Below, one piece after another: positions 50,367-55,421 of a DNA stretch of 55,421 nucleotides. Each line of letters opens with the position of its first letter. Positions within the stretch are counted from its first letter, which is position 1. The stretch lies in NCBI GenBank assembly GCA_029547025.1, contig JAKPQA010000005.1, positions 67,880 to 123,300 of the forward strand. The letters are read 5' to 3'. The notes below the pieces were generated by a model. The model made no database searches and was not told the origin of the DNA. It saw nothing but the letters and a program-made list of their open reading frames with translations. The stretch comes from Armatimonadota bacterium (lineage in GTDB: Bacteria > Armatimonadota > Zipacnadia > UBA1398 > JAKPQA01). A program made the position numbers and the translations under genes.

Positions 50367-50377
50367 GGACCGGGTGT

Positions 50378-50735
50378 GCCCAGGTGGTGGAACCGGCAGA
50401 CACAAGGGACTGGATGGCGGTCTCCCCGCTGGTGACAGTGGGGTAATAAACCGGGTGAACTCAGGGAAGGCTAAGTCGGCTGGTGCGACGCCGGGTGCCG
50501 ATATGCTGATCCTGAGCCAAGCCCGGGGGGAAACCCCCGGGAAGGTGCAGAGACTATGGCTGAGCCTGGGGCGGCTGCGTTGGCCGCGACGGCAATACCG
50601 CCACTCGAGCGCCCGGCATCTTCGCCGCCTGGTTCGCGGAGATGAAGAGATAGTCCACCCCCCCGGGAAACCGGGGGATATGTGTAAAATCCTTTGGCCC
50701 ATGCGGCCGTGCGGGTTCGAGTCCCGCCCTGGGCA
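50378..50735 (+). tRNA. tRNA-Leu(UAA), interrupted by group I intron
   Basis: 5' exon 50378-50411, 3' exon 50685-50735. The acceptor stem GCCCAGG/CCTGGGC pairs perfectly, the T arm is GCGGG-TTCGAGT-CCCGC, and the D stem is GTG/CAC. A long variable arm (GGCC-CATGC-GGCC) marks a class II tRNA. After removing the intron the anticodon arm reads AGGGA-CTTAAAA-TCCTT: a 7-base loop with UAA anticodon. The discriminator base is A (50735) and CCA is not encoded. Without the intron the anticodon loop cannot form, so splicing is required for function. Confidence 0.93.
50412..50684 (+). other. Self-splicing group I intron (IC3-like) in tRNA-Leu
   Basis: 273 nt, no open reading frame of its own. It lies between U33 and U34 of the tRNA and ends with G (50684). 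P1 is clear: the 5' exon ...GGGACU pairs with the internal guide GGTCTCC (50419-50425) with a terminal U-G wobble at the splice site. The core elements are readable in order: P as AACTCAGGGAAGGCT (50458), Q as ATCCTGAGCCAAGCC (50509), R as GTGCAGAGACTA (50545) and S as GATGAAGAGATAGTCC (50641). R and S pair through GACTAT/ATAGTC (P7). GC-rich stem-loops near 50524-50543 and 50657-50676 would be peripheral helices. Confidence 0.92.
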
Positions 50736-50835
50736 CCCGAAGAGACGCGAGGAACCGGCGTCGTCACTTGCGAACTCGCGGACCTCGGGCACCGCGCGCC
50801 TCCCTTGGCCGTGACGAGTCGGGCCCGGGCGACGT

Positions 50836-53171: not shown

Positions 53172-53244
53172 GCCGGCGTAGCTCAGTAGGTAGAGCAGCT
53201 GATTTGTAATCAGCGTGTCGCCCGTTCGAGTCGGGCCGTCGGCT
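53172..53244 (+). tRNA. tRNA-Thr(UGU)
   Basis: 73-base cloverleaf: acceptor GCCGGCG pairs with CGTCGGC (one G-U), D arm GCTC/GAGC, anticodon stem CTGAT/ATCAG with loop TTTGTAA (anticodon UGU), T arm GCCCG-TTCGAGT-CGGGC, discriminator T. CCA is not encoded. It lies at the boundary between the sigma factor gene and the mobile element. Confidence 0.95.
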
Positions 53245-53288
53245 CCCAAGCCTCACCACAGCGTCGTTCGCGCCCCATTTGGGGGGGT

Positions 53289-53346: not shown

Positions 53347-53793
53347 TCACGCAGCCACGATTTTGCGCAGCTCCGAGTCAGTCAGGTCAGACAGACATGC
53401 CTCGACCTCGACGCGCCCCGAGTGCTCGCGCCCCTCGCGCCGCGTCACCACGCCCCGGGCCGCCGCCAGCTTCTCGCGTATCTGCGTCGCCAGCTTCAGG
53501 GCAGTTACCTGGCACCGGGGGCTCGCGTTCGTGTCCACGGCAATCGCCAAGGCGCGAGCCAGGTCGGCGGTCAGCCCGTCAATGTACTCAGCCAACGGGT
53601 CGGGGCCATTGGTGTAGCTCGCCGCCCTCGCCCCCGCGTACCGCAGCACGCTGGCGCGCACCGTGTGCCGGTTGTGGCCGTATTTGCGCCCCAGCTCTGA
53701 CCAGCTCCGCCGGCCGGCCAGCCAGTCCTGCCATGCGCTCTCAACCCACGCCAGGGACTCCGCCCCCCGCGTCCGTGCTCCCGCGTCGCCCAT
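53347..53793 (-). CDS. Terminase-small-subunit-like helix-turn-helix protein of mobile element
   Basis: About 148 residues; ATG 53793 with AGGAGG nine bases upstream. An N-terminal HTH (SWSELGRKYGHNRHTVRASVLRYA) is followed by a helical region (LTADLARALAIAVDTNASP, then ATQIREKLAAARGV) like the DNA-binding small subunits of phage terminases, though HTH proteins of other elements look alike. It is the gene nearest the tRNA-Thr and faces toward it. Function moderately supported. Confidence 0.5.
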   Translation of the reverse strand: MGDAGARTRGAESLAWVESAWQDWLAGRRSWSELGRKYGHNRHTVRASVLRYAGARAASYTNGPDPLAEYIDGLTADLARALAIAVDTNASPRCQVTALKLATQIREKLAAARGVVTRREGREHSGRVEVEACLSDLTDSELRKIVAA

Positions 53794-53902
53794 CGCCAGG
53801 CACCTCCTGCTCGCCATGTGAAACTGGCACGTTCGCGCGCCACTGCCTCACTCGCGGGCCCAGTGCTCCGGCGCTCAGTCCGGCGCTCACTGGTGCCTCG
53901 TG

Positions 53903-54145
53903 CTACTCAGTCCCCAGCTCCTCGGGGAACAGCTCGCCCAGGTGCTCCGCCAGGTCGGCCACCAGGTCGAGCGGGATCGTCACACCCCGCCGGGTCGGCC
54001 GCCACTCGTGGGCGTCCTCGGGCATCCAGTAGCGGCGCACGTCGCAGAACTCGCGCCCACGGTACGCGCGGCGGCTCAGCACCAGGGCTTCGCTCCCTCG
54101 CTCCTGCAGCATGACGGCCCCCTCGGGGAGCCCGGGAGCGGTCAT
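53903..54145 (-). CDS. PC4/YdbC-like ssDNA-binding small protein
   Basis: 80 residues from ATG 54145, preceded by GGGAG; the start overlaps the stop of the upstream Com-like gene (ATGA). The core DVRRYWMPEDAHEWRPTRRG then VTIPLDLVADLAEHL is the PC4 transcriptional-coactivator fold (W/K-P-T-K-K-G-I-x-L-P-L). PC4 homologues in phages and bacteria bind single-stranded DNA. Role in the element is unknown. Confidence 0.65.
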   Translation of the reverse strand: MTAPGLPEGAVMLQERGSEALVLSRRAYRGREFCDVRRYWMPEDAHEWRPTRRGVTIPLDLVADLAEHLGELFPEELGTE

Positions 54146-54366
54146 CGGTCTCGCTCCCACGGTTTGCGTGGGTCGACCTGTGGTGGCCGTGTCTCCCGCA
54201 GGTGGGCCGTGCCCGCCGCGTCGGTCGCGACGGCGAACATGGCGCGGCAGCGGGAGCAACACAGGTGCGCACTCCCCCGCAGTTGCCGGGCCATCAGGCG
54301 CCCGCAGTGGGGGCAGCGCACCTCAGCCGCCGCTGGGCGGCTAGGCATCGCGTACGCCACGGTCAT
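54142..54366 (-). CDS. Com-like small zinc-ribbon protein
   Basis: 74 residues from ATG 54366. A zinc ribbon of four cysteines in two CxxC pairs (VRCPHCGRLMARQLRGSAHL, then CCSRCRAMF) resembles Mu Com and small phage zinc-finger proteins, which act in translational control of neighbouring genes. It overlaps the upstream nuclease-like gene by 26 bases and the downstream PC4-like gene by 4, a coupled phage-style arrangement. Confidence 0.6.
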   Translation of the reverse strand: MTVAYAMPSRPAAAEVRCPHCGRLMARQLRGSAHLCCSRCRAMFAVATDAAGTAHLRETRPPQVDPRKPWERDR

Positions 54367-54859
54367 CGGGAACAGCTCCTCTCAGCACGCCCTCGACGGG
54401 GCGCAGGCGGGTCAGGTCGGTGAGGCAGTAGAGGCGGTAGCTCGCCCGGAAGCCGCCGGGGCCGGGGATCACTGCGCCACGGGGCACACGCACGGAGTAG
54501 CGCAGCATATCCTGCCACCGGATGCACCCGAGGCACTGGGGCTCCCCCGGGCCGAGGCGGTAGTGCACGTACCACGCCACCAGGTGCGCCGCTTGGTCGG
54601 CGCACAGGACGGCACGGCCTGGCATCGTGGTCGACTTCACGTCCCACACGCGGCCGCGAATGATGAAGTCCCCCCGGTCCGGAGCATACGTGAGCTTGGC
54701 TGGACGCCGGTAGGGCACGCCCAGCCCGTCGAGCAGGGCGGCGAAGGCGTCCTCGGCCGCCAGCCCATCAGTGATGCTCCGGCGCCGTTGGTCAGGCGAT
54801 GCGTGCCGGCGGTTCAGGTGCCCGCGCCAGCTTCGCGCGGCGAACGTGTGGCCGTCCAT
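54341..54859 (-). CDS. PD-(D/E)XK-nuclease-like protein of mobile element
   Basis: About 172 residues, ATG 54859 with GGGAGGAG eight bases upstream. A GDFIIRGRVWDVKST block fits the D...(D/E)xK catalytic core of restriction-endonuclease-like folds, preceded by a helix (SITDGLAAEDAFAALLDGLG) as in many such nucleases. No other family recognised. Upstream of its start lie the repeat-spacer array and the left 16-bp inverted repeat, which may hold its promoter. Confidence 0.5.
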   Translation of the reverse strand: MDGHTFAARSWRGHLNRRHASPDQRRRSITDGLAAEDAFAALLDGLGVPYRRPAKLTYAPDRGDFIIRGRVWDVKSTTMPGRAVLCADQAAHLVAWYVHYRLGPGEPQCLGCIRWQDMLRYSVRVPRGAVIPGPGGFRASYRLYCLTDLTRLRPVEGVLRGAVPDDRGVRDA

Positions 54860-54881: not shown

Positions 54882-54897
54882 GTGAGGGATGTGAGGG
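54882..54897 (+). repeat. Left 16-bp inverted repeat flanking the repeat array
   Basis: GTGAGGGATGTGAGGG, the exact reverse complement of 55091-55106. The pair encloses the repeat array. The unit itself is an imperfect tandem (GTGAGGGAT, GTGAGGG). Confidence 0.85.
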
Positions 54898-54918
54898 CAA
54901 AAGGGCAAAACCAGATAG

Positions 54919-55069
54919 CGCTCCCCCGCGCGCGCGCGGGGGCGGCCAGGGCCGCGCCCGTCGCTAGGCCGCTCTGGATCCGCTCCCCCGCGCGCGCGCG
55001 GGGGCGGCGCACACGCGGTATTGGCTGCGGCCTCCGCAGCGCGCTCCCCCGCGCGCGCGCGGGGGCGGC
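54919..55069 (+). CRISPR. Three-repeat CRISPR-like array (28-bp palindromic repeat, 34/33-bp spacers)
   Basis: Three identical 28-base copies start at 54919, 54981 and 55042. Each is a strong palindrome with CTCCCCCGCGCG / CGCGCGGGGG arms, very like type I-E repeats. Spacers are 34 (54947-54980) and 33 bases (55009-55041), giving periods of 62 and 61, the usual I-E spacing. Spacers are unrelated to each other. No cas gene or AT-rich leader is visible. Short length and extreme GC mean a non-CRISPR palindromic repeat (terminator or protein-binding array) is possible. Confidence 0.6.
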
Positions 55070-55086
55070 TAATGCCAAAACGGCGT

Positions 55087-55421
55087 TTATCCCTCACATC
55101 CCTCACGCCTCTCCTCACCGGAGAGCGCCACTCCGACCCAGTACTCGCCACTGCGGCGGTGCGAACTGGCGAGCCCATGGGCTCTCAGGCGCCGCCCGAA
55201 CACGGGCTTCGCGACGGGCCGCAGCCCGCTCGCATCGCACCAGCCGCGATAGCTGACGTAGAGGTCGGCGGCGGACACCCCGGCCTGTGGGTCACGCTCT
55301 GTGCACTCAGCCAGGAACTGCCCCACCACGTCCTCGCGCTCCCGGTAGTCGGCTCCCGCGGCCCGCACCAGTGGGGGCGGCTGCAGTCCCTCGGACTGCC
55401 ATTCGAGGCACCCCTGTATTG
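55087..55421 (-). CDS. P4-family primase/helicase, C-terminal part (5' beyond window)
   Basis: The frame is open to the window edge, so only about 111 residues are seen. They read QGCLEWQSEGLQPPPLVRAA, a helix with EDVVGQFLAECTERDP, then a winged helix (SAADLYVSYRGWCDASGL; KPVFGRRLRAHGL; SGEYWVGVAL). This is the C-terminus of D5/P4-type primase-helicases of phages and integrative plasmids. Its last codons contain the right 16-bp inverted repeat (55091-55106). The bulk of the protein, with AEP and SF3 helicase motifs, should lie to the right. Confidence 0.75.
   Translation of the reverse strand, partial: IQGCLEWQSEGLQPPPLVRAAGADYREREDVVGQFLAECTERDPQAGVSAADLYVSYRGWCDASGLRPVAKPVFGRRLRAHGLASSHRRSGEYWVGVALSGEERREGCEG
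55091..55106 (-). repeat. Right 16-bp inverted repeat flanking the repeat array
   Basis: CCCTCACATCCCTCAC on the plus strand, the exact reverse complement of 54882-54897. It overlaps the last codons (EGCEG) of the primase gene. Confidence 0.85.

Follow-up and report, generated by a model that had tools for sequence, protein, structure and literature searches.

The three-repeat, CRISPR-like array near the end of the window (the whole stretch of DNA that was analysed, 55,421 nucleotides) very probably occupies what we infer to be the site at which an integrated phage-like or PICI-like element starts its replication. The best reading, which we hold to be somewhat probable, is that of a phage-like origin in which a neo-CRISPR arose by off-target type I-E Cas1-Cas2 integration at the central palindrome. 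The origin part of this reading is strong; the expansion of the array by Cas1-Cas2, with the identity of the integrase and the order of events deduced from the present arrangement, is close to an even call. The source of the repeat is the palindrome at the centre of the origin, not a host CRISPR locus. The features of the region are as follows.

55087 to 55421, minus strand: C-terminal end of a P4/D5-type primase-helicase gene (phrog_1156, Pox_D5), stop codon at 55087-55089
55091 to 55106, minus strand: first iteron pair, made of two GTGAGGG units at a distance of 9 bp (GTGAGGGATGTGAGGG when read on the minus strand), within the last codons of the primase
54882 to 55106, no strand: whole presumed replication origin, 16-25-20-25-16 bp when collapsed to one palindrome
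55042 to 55069, no strand: repeat copy 3, 28 bp, consisting of a perfect 20-bp palindrome, CCCCCGCGCGCGCGCGGGGG (55046-55065), and 4 bp on either side
55009 to 55041, no strand: insert (spacer) 2, 33 bp, matching nothing elsewhere in the searches made
54981 to 55008, no strand: repeat copy 2, 28 bp
54947 to 54980, no strand: insert (spacer) 1, 34 bp, matching nothing elsewhere in the searches made
54919 to 54946, no strand: repeat copy 1, 28 bp
54882 to 54897, plus strand: second iteron pair, in inverted orientation, completing the origin dyad
54341 to 54859, minus strand: ORF downstream of the origin, about 172-181 aa, no significant family
54142 to 54366, minus strand: Com-like zinc-ribbon protein (phrog_6417 translational regulator, E 1e-5)
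53903 to 54262, minus strand: PC4-like DNA-binding protein (Pfam PC4, E 7e-9), ORF start uncertain, overlapping the Com-like ORF
53347 to 53817, minus strand: small HTH-like protein, no significant profile match
53172 to 53246, plus strand: tRNA-Thr(TGT), likely attachment site, bordering the element

The 28-bp repeat is CGCTCCCCCGCGCGCGCGCGGGGGCGGC. Its three copies are identical over exactly 28 bp, while the adjoining bases differ across copies (G, C and G on the left; C, G and T on the right), and the periods of the array are 62 and 61. There is no significant similarity between insert 1 and insert 2, and one comparison of an insert with a flank gave a p of 0.006, uncorrected for ten tests. 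The inverted repeats, GTGAGGGATGTGAGGG at 54882-54897 and CCCTCACATCCCTCAC at 55091-55106, match perfectly over their 16 bp, and the gap from one to the other is 193 bp. Coordinates and identity thus bear out what the initial annotation had described: three identical 28-bp repeats, unrelated inserts of 34 and 33 bp, and perfect 16-bp inverted repeats around them. When the last 10.4 kb of the window were simulated 20 times with a first-order Markov model, direct repeats at a spacing of 50-80 reached at most 11 bp (28 bp observed) and inverted arms at most 13 bp (16 bp observed), so neither the array nor its arms are due to chance. A widespread REP-like palindrome, which the same annotation had named as the finding that would count against an array, is ruled out, as the 6.3-Mb MAG has no copy of the 28-bp repeat beyond these three. 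Neither the exact repeat nor a tandem of it was found in IMG/VR. A search of 150 relatives matched two genomes, the element's own and one with an isolated copy at three mismatches. Repeat-like tandems in GTDB genomes gave four matches, of which three are ordinary type I-E arrays (GGCTCCCCCGCG... repeats) and the fourth is a palindrome pair in Streptomyces.

The gene beside the array encodes the C-terminus of a primase, matching phrog_1156 DNA primase (E 2.5e-20) and Pfam Pox_D5 (E 4e-6), and the contig stops at the window end within this gene. On the other side the second 16-bp arm precedes the next ORF, the 172-181-aa one, for which no relatives were found in 100 genomes or in phages. For the visible end of the element as a whole, nucleotide searches gave nothing beyond short marginal matches in the phylum and no match in phages. 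Profiles support the P4 primase and the Com-like protein of the gene cluster first proposed, and give no support to its nuclease-like and terminase-like members. The tRNA-Thr(TGT) gene is likely the attachment site bordering the element. Farther into the window, a group I intron (Rfam Intron_gpI, 50402-50677) lies within a tRNA-Leu(UAA) gene at 50377-50738 (ARAGORN, introns allowed).

Two further primases of the P4/D5-type family are present in the same MAG, on contigs C201 and C196, and the 3' ends of both carry inverted tandem iterons unrelated in sequence to the 54882-55106 site. One of these sister elements has TCTTGACCGATTTGACCGATTGACCGA and its reverse complement 71 bp away, while the other has TGTGGAG-type iterons with arms about 58 bp apart; the first iteron pair of the present element has the same position as theirs. 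At the end of contig C201 (L069:5660-5800) there is also an 87-bp tandem repeat just upstream of the primase gene. The sister iterons led to a wider survey that took in the 3' ends of 173 primase genes, from the host class and from IMG/VR phages, with 172 control windows each taken 700 bp upstream. Of the 173 primase 3' ends, 101 carry inverted arms that match exactly over 12 bp or more, usually as tandem iterons; none of the 172 controls does. After removal of duplicates and of the present element, 88 distinct sites remain; the arm gap is 50-90 bp in 79 of these, with a median of 63. A palindrome with an arm of at least 5 occurs in 69 of these 79 sites and lies no more than 5 bp from the dyad centre in 52, and an alternating CG run of at least 6 occurs in 61 of the 79 (13 of 173 controls). 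Many phage primase genes (L099-L258) thus have inverted iterons after them, with an alternating CG palindrome at the centre. The closest geometries are those of G005 (17-24-20-24-17, palindrome CCATGTGCGCGCGCACATGG) and of L132 from IMG/VR (16-22-20-22-16, palindrome CACGTGCGCGCGCGCACGTG). Three IMG/VR sites are origin-like dyads with two CG runs (L328:6260-6370, L312:4300-4400 and L309:2300-2420), the last with a 63-bp tandem duplication that takes in the iterons; among the matches listed in a scan of IMG/VR for two long CG runs, few look origin-like. A tandem 28-bp repeat is found at one of the 173 surveyed sites, that of the present element.

The gap of 193 bp is unusual among the surveyed sites. 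Subtracting 61 and 62 leaves 70 bp, made up of the 20-bp palindrome with 25 bp on either side; with only one palindrome kept, the site is thus an exact symmetric 16-25-20-25-16 dyad with a gap of ordinary size. In PICIs, the origin has been described directly 3' of the initiator, with the presumed melting site between two sets of iterons (PMC6092414). The survey and this published layout together identify the 16-bp arms as origin iterons and CCCCCGCGCGCGCGCGGGGG as the origin centre. Measured against the pri-rep-ori plan, the site lies directly 3' of the primase, with one iteron pair within its last codons, and has two inverted iteron sets with two GTGAGGG units per arm. The centre is a GC palindrome array and not an AT-rich melting stretch, and for this reason the site is classed as PICI-origin-like and not as a proven PICI member. 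By analogy with the published layout, the C-terminal DNA-binding tail of the primase-helicase would bind the iteron pairs flanking the central palindrome and open the origin there.

In the proposed course of events, two duplications would have copied the central palindrome within a 28-bp unit, and each would have brought in 33-34 bp of unrelated DNA. The palindrome resembles the stem of a type I-E repeat and could have served as an off-target site for the type I-E Cas1-Cas2 integrase, and a supercoiled origin palindrome is a plausible Cas1-Cas2 target. The integrase would nick both ends of the 28-bp stretch and add a 33-bp fragment, repair would duplicate the stretch, and two such rounds would give the present array. 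The site does show an exact 28-bp target duplication with inserts of about 33 bp at a palindrome, the expected Cas1-Cas2 product. Cas1-Cas2 is favoured by the 28-bp duplication, by the 33-34-bp inserts and by the periods of 61 and 62, which are those of type I-E arrays in the host phylum, where the period is 61 in 162 cases, 62 in 18, 60 in one and 63 in one. The dyad centre lies at 14.0 in the present 28-mer and at 13.0 in nearly all type I-E repeats of the phylum. Cas1-Cas2 is favoured over tandem duplication because the inserts share no significant similarity. Apart from Cas1-Cas2 of type I-E or I-F, nothing mobile is known to us to produce a 33-bp insert framed by a 28-bp duplication. Overexpressed Cas1-Cas2 of E. 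coli is reported to integrate spacers off-array (Nivala 2018, cited in PMC11788318), and in Sulfolobus, Cas1 binds to stem-loop DNA that lies outside arrays (PMC9456107). The chances are about balanced that this is a natural neo-CRISPR, in which the host type I-E Cas1-Cas2 twice put spacers into the palindrome of a phage-like origin and so made a small array of CRISPR-like form out of a regulatory palindrome.

The host MAG carries type I-E cas3-cas8e, which counts for expansion by Cas1-Cas2; the operon is cut off by the end of contig C13 directly after cas8e (L011, G000:C13). The type I-E cas1-cas2 genes are absent from the assembly, Cas6e was not found in the MAG, and no host type I-E array was found in the parts of the assembly examined. 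The only Cas1 found in the MAG is a Cas4-Cas1 fusion of another type, next to an array with a period of 71 bp. This fusion, with cas2 and a short array, adjoins phage-like genes on a 9.8-kb contig (L009, G000:C283), these being primase-like and DnaB-like ORFs as judged by eye from the ORF sequences. No empty sister site with a single palindrome was found in IMG/VR, the phylum or phages, and the ancestral site is reconstructed here by collapsing the array. The protospacers that the initial annotation had hoped for were not found: the inserts have none in the element's own genome at up to three mismatches, none in IMG/VR by exact cores, and none that is convincing in phages or plasmids. The missing protospacer, empty sister site and cas1-cas2 genes weaken the Cas1-Cas2 reading, as do a repeat that is only loosely type I-E-like, the lack of a recognised host-type leader and the one insert-flank comparison with a p of 0.006 before correction.

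Expansion intrinsic to the origin is possible though unlikely. Here the three palindromes would form a functional multi-hairpin core, enlarged by recombination or by slippage during replication, with selection or conversion keeping the palindromes identical as the intervening DNA diverged. In favour of this, the region has the form of an origin-like dyad, and the two CG runs in L328 and L312 and the 63-bp duplication including iterons in L309 indicate that expansion routes other than Cas1-Cas2 do occur. Such a history would have to accommodate two inserts without detectable homology to one another and an identity that stops sharply at 28 bp on both sides of all three copies; the 61/62 spacing would be a coincidence, and such an array is present at none of the other sites in the set of 173.

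A functional phage mini-CRISPR is improbable. An intergenic array of this kind would supply crRNA directed at rivals, or RNA that acts as a decoy for the host type I-E complex. The repeat and spacer sizes are those of type I-E (28 and 33-34 bp), the host has cas3-cas8e, and virus-borne mini-arrays with one or two spacers are known (PMC6858448). The description of a CRISPR-like array with type I-E-like dimensions inside a mobile element is accurate to this extent, in that the site does have identical repeats of 28-29 bp and unrelated spacers of 32-34 bp. However, the repeat itself bears only a loose resemblance to type I-E repeats of the phylum, which are of the ...GTGAACCG type and end in GAACCG or GGACCG, while the present repeat ends in GGGGGCGGC and leaves the 3' handle unmatched. 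The identity to a host array that the initial annotation had proposed as support did not appear, with phylum repeats used for the comparison and the host array missing from the assembly. A host-type leader was not recognised beside the array, with no host leader available to compare, and the flanks are the 25-bp arms of the origin. In addition, no protospacers emerged from the searches made, and the origin already accounts for the palindrome. Judging from repeats without a host-type 3' handle, the array probably does not work in immunity and would not serve the host complex.

A cassette that moved in one piece, bounded by the 16-bp inverted repeats, had been suggested by the exactness of these repeats but is ruled out, with hardly any probability left to it, because the last codons of the primase take in one arm, the arms are iterons of a conserved origin-like dyad beside it, and comparable inverted iterons of different sequence lie in the same place in many unrelated elements that have no array.

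If expansion by Cas1-Cas2 is correct, the array would be a natural footprint of the CRISPR adaptation machinery outside CRISPR loci, at a replicating phage origin, which is a place where Cas1-Cas2 activity is expected. Palindromes of actively replicating phage origins may then serve as off-target adaptation sites, and a route for the birth of mini-arrays on mobile elements would be suggested. The site is also a warning that origin palindromes can pass for CRISPR arrays. Independently of the array, the signature found in the survey (a primase stop, inverted iterons, a central CG palindrome and an arm gap of roughly 50-90 bp) may aid the annotation of origins in phages and satellites.

Among known systems, the pri-rep-ori arrangement of PICIs and SaPIs (PMC6092414) is similar in having the origin directly 3' of the primase or replication initiator, with two iteron sets flanking a centre. 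It differs in that the centre, here and in many of the surveyed phage elements, is a GC-rich palindrome and not only an AT-rich stretch, and in that the palindrome of the present element occurs three times with 33-34-bp inserts. The array resembles type I-E arrays of the phylum (GTATTCCCCACGCACGTGGGGGTGAACCG type) in having a palindromic repeat of 28-29 bp and a period of 61-62, but its stem is longer and fully palindromic over 20 bp, it does not have the GAACCG-type 3' end, and it has three repeats only. The mini-arrays of SPV1 and SPV2 copy the host repeat and leader and target relatives (PMC6858448). Like them, the present array has one or two spacers and is intergenic in a mobile element without cas genes; unlike them, it is without a host-type repeat, and no leader or target was found. 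The closest parallel to the favoured Cas1-Cas2 origin of the array is with the neo-CRISPR loci reported by Nivala, Shipman and Church in 2018 (cited in PMC11788318 and PMC9456107), which share the off-array integration of spacers proposed here. Those reported, as far as they are described in PMC11788318, were obtained in E. coli with Cas1-Cas2 overexpressed, whereas the present case would be natural and would lie in the palindrome of a phage-like origin.
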